A DNA stretch of 28,197 bases from a virus, in IMG/VR virus record IMGVR_UViG_3300031841_003411, positions 1 through 28,197 of that record. The stretch is one strand, 5' to 3'. The notes beneath the pieces were generated by a model, which saw nothing but the letters and a program-made list of their open reading frames with translations, did not search any database and was not told the DNA's origin. A program made the translations under genes and the position numbers. Positions 2,991 through 25,410 of the stretch are shown piece after piece. Each line of letters opens with the position of its first letter. Within the stretch, counting starts at the first letter, position 1.

Positions 2991-3854
2991 TTATACCCCC
3001 TCGTCATATTGAATTTTAACGATGCCCTGTGGTTCACGAGCAACCGCGCCAGCTTTAAATAGACCATTCGCCAACCAAGACGTTTTTTGTGCTACCCAAT
3101 CAATAGTCGTTTTCATGTCAAGACCAATAGCAAGACCAATAGCTGACTTTTGATAGGCAAATGCTACACGGTCGGATGCTGCGCCCGGTAAGCCGCCCTC
3201 AGTACGTGTGCCGATCTTCTTAAACTTGAAGCCCATGTAAGAATCTAAGTCACCATCAACTAAGGCTTTAACAACGCCATAGTCTGAGCTAGTAACAGTG
3301 GTATCTTCTAGTAACTTCTGAAGAGCTTGGGCACGTAATACAATGTAGCGATCTGAAGATTCAGCCTCAATATCATCCAAGTGACCAGCGGCGCTACGAA
3401 TAGCGGATAAATCAAAGTTACGTGTAGCTGAAATATCAAAGACTCGACCAGTATCGGGGTCCTCATCGTTAGTAGATGCGAATGTTACTGCTGCCATTGC
3501 GTCAATGATAATCTGATCTTCACGACGACGAATAGCATTAGCGATAGTCATTGCTAATTCTTGCTTTTCATCGAAATTAACTTCTGCTTGATCGAAAATG
3601 TCTGTGTACTCAGGCGCGTTCCAGTTGGCTAAGGTAGCTGTTTGGCGATCATGCCCGATATCCATAGGCGTAACATCTGCTTGTGATGCTTTTTGATTAG
3701 CAACACCTTTGCCCATGCGTGTGAATTTATAAGACTCGCCTACCACCCCTGTTCGATTAGTGACTGTCTCACGTAGATTGCCTTGCCCTTGATATTGATG
3801 TTTAACCTCTTGGTCGAACTCAATAACGGCGGCATTAGATAGAAATTTACTCAT
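2991..3854 (-). CDS. Major capsid protein
   Basis: 287 residues, starting MSKFLSNAAVIEFDQEVKH. Visible hallmarks are an early FDQEVKHQYQGQG segment, the RMGKGVANQKASQADVTPMD region (47-66), a helical IANAIRRREDQIIIDAM spine-helix-like stretch (about 104-120) and a C-terminal TSWLANGLFKAGAVA. This is the pattern of HK97-fold capsid proteins of T7-like and related podoviruses, though shorter than T7 gp10. A consensus promoter lies about 135 bases upstream, giving high late expression separate from the rest of the operon. Flanking scaffold and portal genes upstream and tail genes downstream support the call. Confidence 0.8.
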   Translation of the reverse strand: MSKFLSNAAVIEFDQEVKHQYQGQGNLRETVTNRTGVVGESYKFTRMGKGVANQKASQADVTPMDIGHDRQTATLANWNAPEYTDIFDQAEVNFDEKQELAMTIANAIRRREDQIIIDAMAAVTFASTNDEDPDTGRVFDISATRNFDLSAIRSAAGHLDDIEAESSDRYIVLRAQALQKLLEDTTVTSSDYGVVKALVDGDLDSYMGFKFKKIGTRTEGGLPGAASDRVAFAYQKSAIGLAIGLDMKTTIDWVAQKTSWLANGLFKAGAVAREPQGIVKIQYDEGV

Positions 3855-3989
3855 TTTAATAGCCTCTTATATTTTAATAAAACTTTTGTTTAGTTTTACC
3901 AGTGACCGAAATCGGGTGGCTTAACTAATCTTTTTAGTCTGCCTTCCACAATTCCGGCCATAAGAGGGTATCGGATAGAAGTTAGTTAG

Positions 3990-9075: not shown

Positions 9076-9468
9076 TTAACTCCTATTGATTAGATATTTA
9101 TACAACTGATACGGCGTATGAATAAAGAAATCTTTAATTCCCAGCACGCCCTTGATTACTTCTACACAATTAAACACGCATAAACGAGCCATTTTAGACT
9201 TGCGTGATATATGAACAGTTACAGGGATAATCACAGCGTCAGCCCCAGCATATAGCCTTGGATGGGGGAAATCATTTGTTGACACCAGCGATAAATGAAT
9301 GTGTGACTGTGTTGGGTCTATAACTTGCCATAAATATCCACCTTCTGTTTCCCTCATAGCATACACATGTTGGAAGCCTTTTTGAAGATACTTCGTCAAA
9401 ATATTGTCGTTTTCTGCGTTTATAAATACAATGTGCCAATTTTCTGACACTTCTTCACTAGGTTTCAT
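9076..9468 (-). CDS. Unknown protein between terminase and portal, possible peptidase fold
   Basis: 130 residues. Visible features are WHIVFI (11-16), GFQHVYA (31-37), SHIHLSLV (55-62) and, late, CVFNCVEVIKGVLGI followed by a TPYQLYKYL helix. A His early and a Cys starting a helix later, followed by a TPxxLxxxL stretch, are compatible with circularly permuted NlpC/P60-type proteins, but no active site can be assigned with confidence. Its start overlaps the terminase stop by four bases. Confidence 0.45.
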   Translation of the reverse strand: MKPSEEVSENWHIVFINAENDNILTKYLQKGFQHVYAMRETEGGYLWQVIDPTQSHIHLSLVSTNDFPHPRLYAGADAVIIPVTVHISRKSKMARLCVFNCVEVIKGVLGIKDFFIHTPYQLYKYLINRS

Positions 9469-11765
9469 TCGAATAGATCAAAGTCAGTTCTTGCCACAAT
9501 TGGCCTTTCAAACTCTGTAGACTCACGTTTTAGAGCTGCCCTACCTTCTCCACAGGCTAATAATCCATATTCGCCGGCTTCGCAATTAGAAACCAGAACT
9601 CCATTGGCGTAATAACAATGAGCTTCTTCAACTTCAATGCTATATACGACCCTCTCTTCTATATGTTCTTGCTCTACACCTTTGACCGCACCATTTACTT
9701 CTGGATGCAGATGTTGACCTAACAGAGTATTCTTCATTGCACTCCACGCAAGCTTTCTTAACGATAGTGCTTTTCGCGAATAATGCCGCTGCCCCTTTCC
9801 TGCCAATTTCTCTGGCTTTGTCTTGGTTACGTTTTCTCCACTCAACTGCTTCCTTCTGCGCCTTTTCGATGTTACGAAGAGCTGTTTTTTCCCTATTATC
9901 CCTATCTTCTCTCCAGTGCCTCTTGTGGTGTTCGCTACTGTGTAGGCACATAAGGTTTTCTGGTGAGTTATTAAAGGTATTCCCATCAACATGGTGAACA
10001 TCGTGCTTATCTGGTATCTTACCTTTGTGGTAAATATATACTTCGCGGTGCAAATACTTTGAATCAACGCTTTTATAATACCCGTCTCTTTTATAAAACC
10101 TAACCCCATTAAACTCATAAATTTTGTTTTTAGCGCTAGACCTAATCGGTAAAACTTCCAATGGTATGACCATAACCTACCCTCATTTGAAATAAATCTG
10201 TATTTTACCGCATCAGCTGGAATAAATCCATTTAGCGTCCAAACAGGATGATCTGGTGTGCACCTTGCAAACCCAGCATCTATAGTTAAAGCTTTTCGAC
10301 TGCCTGTAGCTAAAATCTTTCTAGCGCCTAATGGCGTGTTAACTAAATCACCTTCCTTCAACAACGCTACATCTATATAACCAAACGGAGTCGAGATCAT
10401 TGTCCCAGCCACAAAACATACATGAGAATACTTATTCTTGTCCGGCTCATCGTGATACCTCTCATCCCCTGCCACTTGCTTTCTTTTATAGCAGAATCCA
10501 CCAGCTAGACCTTTACGCCAAGTCTTACACTTTGGGCTTATCATAAATGCTGGCTTGCCATCCATACACAGGCGTTTCATAGGGTTAATGATTGATGATC
10601 GCCTAACTAACGGGTCATTTGTGTGTGTTGGCTGGACGTTTATTCCATGCTTCCACAATACTTTAAACGGTGTCATTTCGGTAGCTTGGCCTTTCTGGTC
10701 GCCTGCTGGGTCCCCTCCACCTGTTTGAAATGTAAAGCCGGGGTAAGTTTGATCTATATAAAGTTTTAATTCTGGTGCAAATACAGCCGCGCTCATATCT
10801 TCCGTCACAAGCTCGTCGAATCCTATATACCTGCCCATTGCTTTATCATATTGAATAAAGCTACAGGCAGGCGTTCTACCGAAGTCAACGCCCAAAATTA
10901 TTGGTAAATGCGGTGATGGTTTGTACTCTTCGCTCATACAGTGAACAGAATCAACATATTCAGGATAAACAGGCTTACCATCAGCAACAAAGCCATATTC
11001 ATTCGCTAGATTGACTTTTATCCAATCTGGTGACTTACCTTGCATGCCTTTGATGTAATAGCCATCGGGAAGGTTAATAAGATTCTCGGCATTTTCATTG
11101 ATGATAAACTTGTCGCCCTGCTGTATAACTCCTCCCGGTTGCCTGTGAAAGTTCCAGCCCTCAGGGTGAATATTCTCGGCTAGATCATAATACCAGTGGT
11201 CCTCATCTGGTGCGTTAGTGTCGCCAATCATGCCGTGCCAAGTTGGGCTGACGCCTCCAGCTGCCTTAGATGGATAACGGCCATGTCTTAAGTCTGCCAT
11301 GTCAACAACGGCCTTATTCAGCTCTTTAACCTCATTTAACCAAAACCCTGTAGCTTGAGCACCCCTGAGTTTTTTCACAGCGTCAGCACGGTCTAAGGCT
11401 AAGAATATAAGCTCTGATTTAACATTCGTTCCATCTTCTAGATCAAAGTCTAATCTGTGCGTTGGTGGCTCTAAGCCTCCACCTGTGTACCTGCCTAAAT
11501 CACGATAAAGCTCTAGCCAATCTTTGATCGTTGTAGTCGTTAAATCGGGGAATGTGTTTCTTACTGCGTAGAATCTTGATGGCCTAACGTTCTGCTCATT
11601 GGGTGCTTGGTTGCACATAGCATTAAATAGCTTCTGACAGGCTTGAACTGTCTTACCACTGCCCAATGGCCCCATAATAAACTCAACGCGGTCCCATGAG
11701 CGTGCAAAGTCACCTAATGCCTTGCCTTGGGGCTTAGTTATGAATTCAATCGTCGCTGCTGTCAT
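9465..11765 (-). CDS. terL: Terminase large subunit containing an intein
   Basis: ATP-driven DNA-packaging motor and nuclease. 766 residues from the ATG at 11765; a longer frame begins at a TTG at 11786. Walker A is GPLGSGKT (32-39); a Walker B-like strand ending in Glu is GFWLNEV (140-146). The nuclease domain shows GVDFGRTP (Asp 294), GGGDPAG (Asp 352) and the last acidic motif, YSHVCEAGEYG, split by an intein. Residues 450-727 are the intein; splicing leaves a 488-residue terminase, normal for the family. It overlaps the small-subunit gene by 20 bases. The intein sits in the nuclease active-site motif, so unspliced protein should be inactive as nuclease. Confidence 0.88.
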   Translation of the reverse strand: MTAATIEFITKPQGKALGDFARSWDRVEFIMGPLGSGKTVQACQKLFNAMCNQAPNEQNVRPSRFYAVRNTFPDLTTTTIKDWLELYRDLGRYTGGGLEPPTHRLDFDLEDGTNVKSELIFLALDRADAVKKLRGAQATGFWLNEVKELNKAVVDMADLRHGRYPSKAAGGVSPTWHGMIGDTNAPDEDHWYYDLAENIHPEGWNFHRQPGGVIQQGDKFIINENAENLINLPDGYYIKGMQGKSPDWIKVNLANEYGFVADGKPVYPEYVDSVHCMSEEYKPSPHLPIILGVDFGRTPACSFIQYDKAMGRYIGFDELVTEDMSAAVFAPELKLYIDQTYPGFTFQTGGGDPAGDQKGQATEMTPFKVLWKHGINVQPTHTNDPLVRRSSIINPMKRLCMDGKPAFMISPKCKTWRKGLAGGFCYKRKQVAGDERYHDEPDKNKYSHVCFVAGTMISTPFGYIDVALLKEGDLVNTPLGARKILATGSRKALTIDAGFARCTPDHPVWTLNGFIPADAVKYRFISNEGRLWSYHWKFYRLGLALKTKFMSLMGLGFIKETGIIKALIQSICTAKYIFTTKVRYQISTMFTMLMGIPLITHQKTLCAYTVANTTRGTGEKIGIIGKKQLFVTSKRRRRKQLSGENVTKTKPEKLAGKGQRHYSRKALSLRKLAWSAMKNTLLGQHLHPEVNGAVKGVEQEHIEERVVYSIEVEEAHCYYANGVLVSNCEAGEYGLLACGEGRAALKRESTEFERPIVARTDFDLFE
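9585..10418 (-). mobile_element. Intein in terminase, 278 residues
   Basis: The in-frame insert begins at Cys (codon 10418-10416) with CFVAGTMISTPFG, an intein block A. Block B follows as CTPDHPVWT, with the usual Thr and His. Block F is VVYSIEVEEAHCYYANG and block G is GVLVSN followed by Cys, the first C-extein residue. The penultimate residue is Ser rather than the common His, as in some other inteins. About 190 residues between blocks B and F show no in-frame endonuclease; they are basic, low in acidic residues and coincide with an HNH gene in another frame. Terminase ends and insert ends join cleanly into an uninterrupted conserved motif. Confidence 0.9.
9640..10173 (-). CDS. HNH endonuclease nested out of frame inside the intein
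   Basis: 177 residues in the -1 (equally +2) frame relative to terminase, same strand. ATG at 10173 has a GAGG seven bases upstream, and the frame is closed just before it by TGA and TAG, so it is translated on its own and not as an N-terminal fusion. HNH motif: VHHVDGN (59-65), NN (68-69), NL (73-74), then His at 78, 82 and 83. A C-terminal zinc-finger-like part has CVEC (142-145) and CGQRC (162-166). It ends over the first codons of block F. Expected role: cut intein-free terminase alleles to spread the intein. Activity is inferred from the family. Confidence 0.88.
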   Translation of the reverse strand: MVIPLEVLPIRSSAKNKIYEFNGVRFYKRDGYYKSVDSKYLHREVYIYHKGKIPDKHDVHHVDGNTFNNSPENLMCLHSSEHHKRHWREDRDNREKTALRNIEKAQKEAVEWRKRNQDKAREIGRKGAAALFAKSTIVKKACVECNEEYSVRSTSASRSKWCGQRCRARTYRREGRI

Positions 11766-12009
11766 CTTGGCCCGATAAATCGACAACTTTCACAATATGC
11801 CTTACGTTAACATCGCCTTTAATCGATAAAGGCAACACCTTACCCACTAGTGTTAGAAAAGCATTGGGGTTAGCTTCGGCCTGCTCTTGAAGATAGTTAA
11901 TACCTCCAGCTCTATCTAAAGCTGTTAAAACCATATCTTTAAGCTCTTTAGTCACCTTGTTTGGTGTTCCTGCCGTCCTACCTCCCGTTTTCTTTCTCTT
12001 CGCTGTCAT
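11746..12009 (-). CDS. terS: Terminase small subunit
   Basis: 87 residues. The N-terminus KKTGGRTAGTPNKVTKELKD (6-25) and the middle AGGINYLQEQAEANPNAFL are typical of short phage small-terminase or DNA-recognition proteins. The C-terminus is acidic (DLSGQDDSSDD). It lies directly before the large subunit and overlaps its start. Such proteins bind the packaging site and load the motor. Confidence comes from pattern plus position. Confidence 0.7.
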   Translation of the reverse strand: MTAKRKKTGGRTAGTPNKVTKELKDMVLTALDRAGGINYLQEQAEANPNAFLTLVGKVLPLSIKGDVNVRHIVKVVDLSGQDDSSDD

Positions 12010-15168: not shown

Positions 15169-15849
15169 TCACATTTCTAAGTAAATTTTTAATTCTCTTA
15201 TCTCAGCGTTAAACATCTTACGCATAGCAATCAATTCATCACAATCCCAATCTACCACCCTGTCAACTTCGCAGTATTCGATAATTTCCTTCGCCCTTTC
15301 TTGACCAAATCTATCTCTAAGACCTTGTAGATAACCGCGCGTGTTCTTATTACCGCTTATATTACCACTTAACCCCTTATTACAGTATCTATTGCATTGA
15401 AGATATGTATTTAATACGTCAAATCTTAGCTCACTTTGGCTTCCAACTGTCTTATAATGTCCACAGCACCAATCCATATTCGGCTTATTGCAGCTAATAC
15501 ACGTCGGCTCTAATCCTCTATCCTTGAACCACTTAAATTCCTGCAATCGCCTAAGCTTGTTAAACACGGGCTGCGTGATTTTCAACTGATACGCTAAATC
15601 GCTTTCTTTAAACTCGCGCTTCTTCTTGGCCCACGCCTTTTTGTCCTTAATGTGTTCTTTCCTTAACGACTGTGCTAATTTTCGTGATTTCTTCTCGTTA
15701 ACCTCTTGTTGTTTCTTTCTAGCCCACTTAATCGCGTGATCTGTCGAACAGAAACAACCTATCCCCCACGTGACCATCAATTCAACTGGTGCGGATGACT
15801 TACAAAACTTGCATTTTTTAGACTTACCCACCATTTTTCTGACGGTCAC
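15169..15849 (-). CDS. ninG: NinG/Rap recombination protein
   Basis: 226 residues from the GTG at 15849, preceded by AGGGG at five bases and by the stop of the small upstream ORF; an ATG five codons further (15834) and a longer frame to 15885 are alternatives. N-terminal zinc ribbon (CKFC, 13-16; CFC, 32-34), a basic helical middle, then CISCNKPNMDWCCGHY (117-132) and RFDVLNTYLQCNRYCNKGLS, the HNH-like core of lambda NinG. In lambda this protein (Rap) binds branched DNA and helps resolve recombination intermediates in the Red pathway. It fits with RecT and SSB in this genome. Confidence 0.85.
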   Translation of the reverse strand: MTVRKMVGKSKKCKFCKSSAPVELMVTWGIGCFCSTDHAIKWARKKQQEVNEKKSRKLAQSLRKEHIKDKKAWAKKKREFKESDLAYQLKITQPVFNKLRRLQEFKWFKDRGLEPTCISCNKPNMDWCCGHYKTVGSQSELRFDVLNTYLQCNRYCNKGLSGNISGNKNTRGYLQGLRDRFGQERAKEIIEYCEVDRVVDWDCDELIAMRKMFNAEIRELKIYLEM

Positions 15850-15850
15850 A

Positions 15851-15964
15851 TTAACCCCTAACGGGAATATATTTACTAATAACAACGCTATGTACCGCTA
15901 TCAGTTCGAACGGGAATAATTTAGGTTTATTTAGCGTTTCATCAATCTTCGTTATATCATTCAT
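15851..15964 (-). CDS. 37-residue ORF upstream of ninG
   Basis: ATG at 15964 follows AGAGG at a good distance, and the TAA lies one base before the GTG of ninG. The peptide has a hydrophobic stretch LFPFELIAVHSVVISKYI. Its spacing supports translation, at least as a coupling ORF; a function cannot be suggested. Confidence 0.45.
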   Translation of the reverse strand: MNDITKIDETLNKPKLFPFELIAVHSVVISKYIPVRG

Positions 15965-24951: not shown

Positions 24952-25410
24952 ATGAAAATTTGCAATATATGTGAAATAGAAAAAAGCAAGTGTGATTTTT
25001 ATAAGGGTCACGCTTGCTGTAAGGATTGCTACAAGGCTAAAGTTAAAAATTATCAGCTTAATAATAAAAGCAAGATACAAGCTTACGAGAAAAGTAGGGC
25101 TAGCTTACCTCATAGAGTTAAAGCCAGAAAGGAGTACTCTACTTCCAAGGCTGGTCTTGAAGCTGGCAGAAGGGCCAAAACGGCTTGGGCAGAAAGAAAC
25201 GCCATAAAGAGAGGCGCTTCGACGATGGTTCGTAAGGCTGTACGTGAAGGGAAATTAATTAAACCTAGTCATTGTTCAGATTGTGAATGCGAGCATAATA
25301 GATTACACGGGCACCACGATGATTATTCAAAGCCTTTAGATGTAAGATGGCTTTGCCCAACTTGCCATAATCAGTGGCATAAAATAAACGGTGCCGGATT
25401 GAATGGTTAA
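24952..25410 (+). CDS. Free-standing HNH endonuclease
   Basis: 152 residues. A Cys-rich start (CNIC, 4-7, and CCKDC, 22-26) forms a small zinc finger, followed by a basic helical linker. The HNH part has CSDC (108-111), LHGHHDDYSKP (118-128) and LCPTCHNQWHK (134-144), combining a beta-beta-alpha metal site with a structural zinc. Such proteins are common phage homing-type nucleases; none of the flanking genes shows an intron. Own promoter. Different from the intein-nested HNH protein. Confidence 0.8.
   Translation: MKICNICEIEKSKCDFYKGHACCKDCYKAKVKNYQLNNKSKIQAYEKSRASLPHRVKARKEYSTSKAGLEAGRRAKTAWAERNAIKRGASTMVRKAVREGKLIKPSHCSDCECEHNRLHGHHDDYSKPLDVRWLCPTCHNQWHKINGAGLNG

Follow-up and report, generated by a model that had tools for sequence, protein, structure and literature searches.

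The terminase large subunit (TerL) reading frame in the window, by which we mean the whole 28,197-nucleotide stretch of viral DNA that was analyzed, is interrupted by what is very probably a mobile cis-splicing mini-intein, mobilized by an HNH_3 endonuclease gene that lies within it, out of frame, and is translated separately. The features on which this reading draws are as follows (all on the minus strand).

9465-11786 (-): TerL ORF, one open frame, interrupted by the intein (ORF list)
10419..11786 (-): TerL N-extein, comprising the ATPase domain and most of the nuclease domain (ORF list)
10418-9585 (-): intein, 278 residues in the TerL frame (translation)
10418-10416 and 9587-9585 (-): intein ends, Cys1 and Asn278, respectively, flanked by KYSHV and CEAGEYG
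10380..10418 (-): intein block A, from Cys1, CFVAGTMIST (translation; Cys1 invariant in alignments A2/A3)
10239..10274 (-): intein block B, GFARCTPDHPVW, with TxxH (translation; Thr54 and His57 invariant or nearly so)
10180..10184 (-): Shine-Dalgarno sequence GAGGG for the HNH gene, within the intein (sequence; duplex energy -6.1)
10173-9640 (-): HNH_3 homing-type endonuclease gene, 177 aa (Pfam HNH_3, E=2.6e-14)
9609..9650 (-): intein block F, VVYSIEVEEAHCYY (translation; Tyr259, Val263, and His267 conserved)
9585..9608 (-): intein block G, ANGVLVSN, followed by Cys+1 (translation; Asn278 invariant)
9468..9584 (-): TerL C-extein, CEAGEYG... (translation; homologues)

The identity of the host gene is indicated by an intein-free homologue (L002), which matches the phrog_2 terminase large subunit (E=7e-17). 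The ORF opens at a TTG codon (11786), though a downstream ATG is probably the true start; by analogy, the C-extein would carry a nuclease motif with a catalytic acidic residue. An earlier note on this DNA had placed blocks A, B, F, and G in the terminase frame, and translation bears this out with exact coordinates. All residues of a class 1 cis-splicing intein are present (Cys1, T54xxH57, Asn278, and Cys+1); block F reads VYSIEVEEAHCYY in the window intein, and the penultimate residue of block G (ANGVLVSN|C) is serine, where histidine is usual. Pfam matches of the intein to splicing domains fall under the curated cut-offs (Hint_2, E=1.5e-5; Intein_splicing, E=0.0025). A profile built from related inteins matches the gp41-1 intein in the PDB (E=4e-20); this best PDB match is known as a split intein from fractured-gene loci. 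In the AF2 model of the intein, the two Hint halves (residues 1-70 and 250-278) are confident, with pLDDT mostly 79-98, and the loop from 74 to 250 is disordered; Foldseek searches with this model return inteins as top matches (probability 1.00, E from 5e-4). Together with the profile match, these models point to a Hint fold. The halves of a split intein lie on separate polypeptides; those of the window lie in the single open frame 9465-11786. Insertion is in frame, and the exact empty site, KYSHV|CEAGEYG, occurs in the intein-free homologue, with equivalent sites in about 20 intein-free relatives. These data suggest a class 1-type cis-splicing intein, for which splicing is predicted.

The HNH gene covers intein residues 82 to 259, in the interval from block B to block F; it is read on the same strand as the intein but in another frame (-1), and its stop codon is overlapped by the first codons of block F. 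The 177-residue protein that the earlier note had read in another frame of this strand is thus recovered (10173-9640), with its own ATG, a GAGGG at a spacing of 6-7 nt, and TGA and TAG stops in its own frame just 5' of the gene start. The protein matches phrog_15471 (E=6.8e-23), and its AF2 model has a pLDDT of 92. The HNH motif and a DNA-binding zinc finger that would be expected of an HNH homing endonuclease are both found: catalytic residues H60, H61, N69, and N73 are conserved, as are Cys142/145/162/166 of a C-terminal Cys4 zinc finger. A profile of the HNH alignment (A4) matches I-HmuI (1u3e, E=0.001); Foldseek with the HNH model gave nothing significant, I-HmuI being first at E=0.29, so that the likeness to I-HmuI comes from the profile search alone. 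The intein stretch covering the gene is, as had been noted, open, basic (pI 10.4), and without motifs, and it matches no endonuclease family in Pfam; no in-frame endonuclease was found there. A promoter scan of the region identified nothing beyond chance. A group I intron was considered and rejected: RNA structure and stops in the host frame would be expected of one, and the window has no Rfam match and an open host frame. The layout is not an assembly error, since it recurs in a second contig that differs by 4.4% over the region aligned.

Evidence for mobility comes from comparison with the related contig L029/L007, which is 4.4% divergent from the window over 4.4 kb (95.6% identical). Across the 834-bp intein, the two differ at 3 positions, where the regional rate predicts 36 differences (P about 1.6e-12). 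Double coding cannot by itself account for this island of identity, because intein DNA outside the HNH overlap is also nearly identical (1 difference versus 12.9 expected, P=3e-5). A near-identical element in two otherwise diverged phages fits recent homing transfer; in principle, ordinary recombination that happened to exchange the intein could yield the same island. Divergence from intein-free relatives is just mildly raised in the first 100 bp beside the intein, and exon co-conversion was not used as evidence. By its sequence, the HNH protein would be a homing enzyme that cuts the empty allele, a role for which the transfer island is the one line of mobility support.

Protein searches with the intein and the HNH protein separately, as the earlier note had proposed, recovered phages with the same HNH gene out of frame in a TerL intein. 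The annotated examples are Rhodobacteraceae phage LS06-2018-MD07, Acinetobacter phage Highwayman, and Tetrasphaera phage TJE1; an unannotated gut contig also has the layout. In all three annotated records (3/3), only TerL is annotated over the nested DNA and the HNH gene is unannotated, which suggests that nested HNH genes are being missed. An alignment of nested-layout HNH proteins was then scanned against viral and genome contigs. Strict loci, in which both intein halves are recognized, number 69, the window included, and the intein is in the HNH+1 frame and open in every one (69/69). They form 33 HNH clusters at 50% identity and come from phage contigs and from genomes labeled Bacteroidota, Bacillota, Myxococcota, Actinomycetota, Nitrospirota, Nitrososphaerota, and Thermoplasmatota. 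The extein flanks are nearly always TerL motifs (DH|CDALRY, HDD|CDA), with a Walker-B-like site in L053, L066, and L125. A second scan, started from the intein side, gave the same picture.

Over all loci collected there are 144 open inteins: 121 with an HNH gene, 20 mini-inteins, and 3 others. The 121 nested inteins (87 after de-duplication) hold the homologous HNH gene in the same relative frame, none of them in the intein frame, and nearly all lie at conserved TerL sites; the layout is not unique but recurrent. As the locus queries were built from nested examples, these frequencies are not a census of all inteins. The three others comprise one intein with an in-frame HNH (L211), one with an in-frame LAGLIDADG (L216), and one with a different type of HNH, out of frame in the opposite phase (L232; PF01844 E=0.0017, just under the cut-off). 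In five loci (L042, L043, L058, L067, and L094), the intein is open in the opposite phase, with no stops there and 9-17 in the usual phase; nested layouts therefore exist in both phases. In L125 (CAMBEE010000024.1), HNH genes at 2013-2618 and 3435-3977 fall within one 1023-codon open frame; two inteins seem to be present in it, each of them with a separate HNH gene out of frame. In L133, the N-intein and C-intein are in different frames around the end of block B and the remainder is open, probably reflecting a 1-nt indel, whether from an assembly error or in a pseudogene. Two further loci (L207 and L208) show strong intein C-block matches without a recognized N-block in the same open frame, and are possibly large, split, or divergent inteins.

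Stop expectations were obtained by synonymous recoding of each HNH gene with the codon usage of its own TerL. Across the 33 cluster representatives, the intein frame over the HNH gene contains no stops, where 147 would be expected (summed log10 P = -77); the third frame of the same 33 genes contains 626. For the window alone, 4.9 stops would be expected on average in the intein frame, and 0.18% of trials had none (P=0.0018). Where members of the HNH family are free-standing or lie in split loci, both frames contain stops, as a rule many of them, with up to about 25 in the intein-equivalent frame of free-standing homologues. The lower intrinsic stop load of the usual intein phase (147 expected versus 541 in the opposite phase) may explain its dominance without a single origin.

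Replacements and stop-creating changes were compared with expectation in 18 independent pairs. Replacements in the HNH frame are depleted (766 versus 1200 expected), those in the intein frame are not (1196 versus 1163 expected), and stop-creating changes are depleted (29 versus 65 expected). The amino acids of the HNH protein are conserved, and the overlapping intein stretch is constrained only to remain open, leaving the intein loop free to vary as long as it does so. The proposal that each frame constrains the other consequently holds in part: the HNH frame keeps its amino acids, whereas the intein frame keeps only its freedom from stops. Relatives with a stop-filled intein frame, which had been expected to speak against the nested arrangement, do exist; they look like split inteins (N-intein, HNH, C-intein) and add to the picture instead of contradicting it.

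At HNH starts, 14 of 32 loci have a Shine-Dalgarno duplex energy of -6 or below, against 2.9 expected and a maximum of 8 in 1000 controls, though roughly one locus in three has a weak signal or none. It is improbable that the nuclease is instead produced as a fusion to the N-intein by programmed -1 frameshifting. The constant -1 position of the HNH gene relative to the intein in the main group is the common direction of bacterial frameshifting, but this phase has intrinsically fewer stops (147 versus 541 expected), which accounts for the bias; a minority of loci use the other frame, and the distance from the HNH-frame stop to the HNH domain that follows it has a median of 12 codons. A slippery X_XXY_YYZ heptamer falls in the gap between stop and domain in 7 of 87 loci, and the window is not among them. 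Given the enrichment of Shine-Dalgarno sequences and the rarity of slippery sites, internal initiation is favored. We give little credence to a history in which an ancestral in-frame HNH intein underwent two compensating frameshifts, leaving the nuclease reading as a dying remnant and only the intein frame of importance. In-frame HNH and LAGLIDADG inteins do occur in the same sets (L211 and L216, respectively); purifying selection, however, acts on the HNH frame and not on the intein frame, the HNH genes have their own starts and ribosome-binding sites, and the family has free-standing relatives but no in-frame member among the loci collected.

That HNH proteins are common near terminase genes (PMC12613952, PMC11855218) invites a different function for the protein, that of a packaging partner of terminase, like the HNH proteins beside terminase in HK97-type phages. 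This we regard as very improbable, since neither the intein nor any HNH match is present in near-identical phages (one of them a 35-kb record), the element does not extend beyond the intein and bears a transfer island, and the HNH profile is of the I-HmuI homing type. More generally, searches of six intein-free relative records of 4-38 kb returned no HNH match. Although stops are intrinsically rarer in the phase used, an overlap of ORFs by chance, with the intein frame merely open, is next to inconceivable given the complete avoidance of stops across the 33 clusters and the stop-filled free-standing controls, and was rejected on these counts. The claim that a splicing intein and a separately encoded HNH nuclease share the same DNA is thus upheld at the level of sequence, by both homologies, the empty site, stop avoidance, enrichment of ribosome-binding sites, and HNH conservation.

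Under the preferred reading of a mini-intein mobilized by a nested nuclease gene, the HNH_3 gene would occupy, out of frame, the B-F slot, which in canonical inteins holds the endonuclease. Ribosomes on the TerL frame would traverse the HNH DNA and produce a 278-residue intein with a predicted Hint fold and a disordered basic loop, which would excise itself and restore TerL. Other ribosomes would initiate at the internal Shine-Dalgarno sequence and ATG, a start site suggested by sequence statistics, and produce the 177-aa HNH nuclease; it is plausible that nuclease dose is in this way set independently of terminase, as previously suggested. In a co-infection, the nuclease would cut or nick the TerL site of a phage that lacks the intein, and repair would copy the entire composite element, in keeping with a near-identity island limited to the intein between two diverged phages.

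Four states are found among relatives, mostly at one TerL nuclease motif: mini-intein, free-standing HNH, nested, and split. Mini-inteins without HNH include L035 and L036, as well as L209 at a Walker-B-like site. L209 (130 aa, without HNH) and L213 (275 aa, with HNH) are the same intein, with 82% DNA identity where aligned, and L036 and L200 form another mini/nested pair at one site. Free-standing HNH genes lie just downstream of intein-free TerL in L040, L041, and L081; the first two are the nearest HNH relatives of the window in the HNH tree (37% identity, moderate support). In the split form L071 (346-2754), TerL-N with the N-intein, the HNH gene, and the C-intein with TerL-C are three overlapping genes. 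TerL is likewise divided between two genes, an intein half on each side of the break and HNH in between, in L033, L050, L052, L087, L098, and L110, and the same arrangement is seen in L118-L122, L132, and L149; by sequence, L071-like loci are candidate natural split inteins. In L033 (MG592603.1, Vibrio phage 1.238.A), the annotation gives TerL as two 'hint' proteins and omits the HNH ORF that separates them.

The HNH tree requires 19 changes of state, compared with 33 in shuffles; its deep branches are poorly supported and leave the direction of change unfixed. Distances among HNH proteins and among inteins correlate (r=0.35, permutation p=0.001), which suggests that the composite is mostly inherited as a unit, and no clear swap of HNH genes between inteins was detected at the thresholds used. 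By analogy, a free-standing HNH gene targeting the conserved TerL site probably entered a mini-intein there, after which selection would have kept the intein frame open; a later break of frame would likely give a split intein with HNH between its halves, a step suggested by the relatives. Collaborative homing has been proposed for group I introns (PMC2988022), and inteins have a conserved endonuclease slot (PMC6801210); the mini/nested pair L209/L213 and the pattern of four states are as would be expected if collaborative homing had filled that slot. In its broadest form, the proposal is that an out-of-frame HNH gene in the endonuclease slot is a general, repeatedly evolved route to mobile mini-inteins in phage terminases. 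Either alternative frame would serve, no fewer than two HNH families would have taken part (L232 representing the second), and natural split inteins could arise when such a composite loses its open frame; we advance this tentatively, as a serious possibility short of a favored conclusion.

The closest described parallel in the literature considered here, the ShiLan element, consists of an HNH gene set out of frame within a phage DNA methylase; neither intein nor intron was found there, and no ribosome-binding site was detectable (Arsenault, Gosselin, Gogarten 2025, PMC11855218). As in that case, the host gene in the window stays open in its own frame across an HNH gene that is read in another, and ShiLan and the nested TerL inteins share zinc fingers, a sporadic distribution, and proposed independent initiation. 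Unlike ShiLan, the HNH gene of the window fills the endonuclease slot of an intein with recognizable blocks, and the nested layout is found mostly in TerL and across many phyla. Canonical bifunctional inteins, represented here by L216 and L211, likewise have Hint blocks flanking an endonuclease in the B-F slot and home as whole elements, but splicing and cutting reside in one polypeptide rather than in two proteins from two frames. Fractured genes with split inteins, reportedly described by Dassa et al. (2009), also hold a separate endonuclease gene between N- and C-intein, and the split form L071 shares its HNH family and TerL site with the window; the window intein differs as one continuous chain that reads through the endonuclease DNA. 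In group I introns with nested or overlapping endonuclease ORFs, a separately translated HNH similarly rides a splicing element at a conserved site (PMC2988022), whereas splicing in the window would act on protein, which demands a host frame without stops over the whole endonuclease gene. TerL inteins of mycobacteriophages lie in the ATPase domain (PMC5050341), and that of the window lies in the nuclease domain.

Our literature search returned no description of an intein with an out-of-frame endonuclease, but priority may lie with earlier work. PMC11855218 cites a preprint about non-canonical inteins of actinobacteriophages (Gosselin et al. bioRxiv 10.1101/2025.01.02.630785) and, in the context of overlapping frames, a 1998 paper (Gorbalenya); the inteins described by Gosselin et al. 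may be related ones, closer than ShiLan.

A separate overprinted gene uncouples splicing from cutting, and an ordinary free-standing HNH gene could mobilize a mini-intein without evolving a fusion. Inteins have generally been regarded as carrying the endonuclease as a domain of the same chain. The nested layout creates long same-strand overlaps in an essential phage gene, and with every intermediate state present around a single site, ideas on how mobile inteins and split ones originate can be put to the test.

Elsewhere in the window, a NinG-like recombination protein is encoded at 15172-15885 (-) (Pfam NinG, E=1.2e-23). A free-standing ORF of 152 aa at 24952-25410 (+), rich in Cys and His (CSDCECEHNRLHGHHDDYSKP...LCPTCHNQWH), looks like a second HNH-type or zinc-binding protein.
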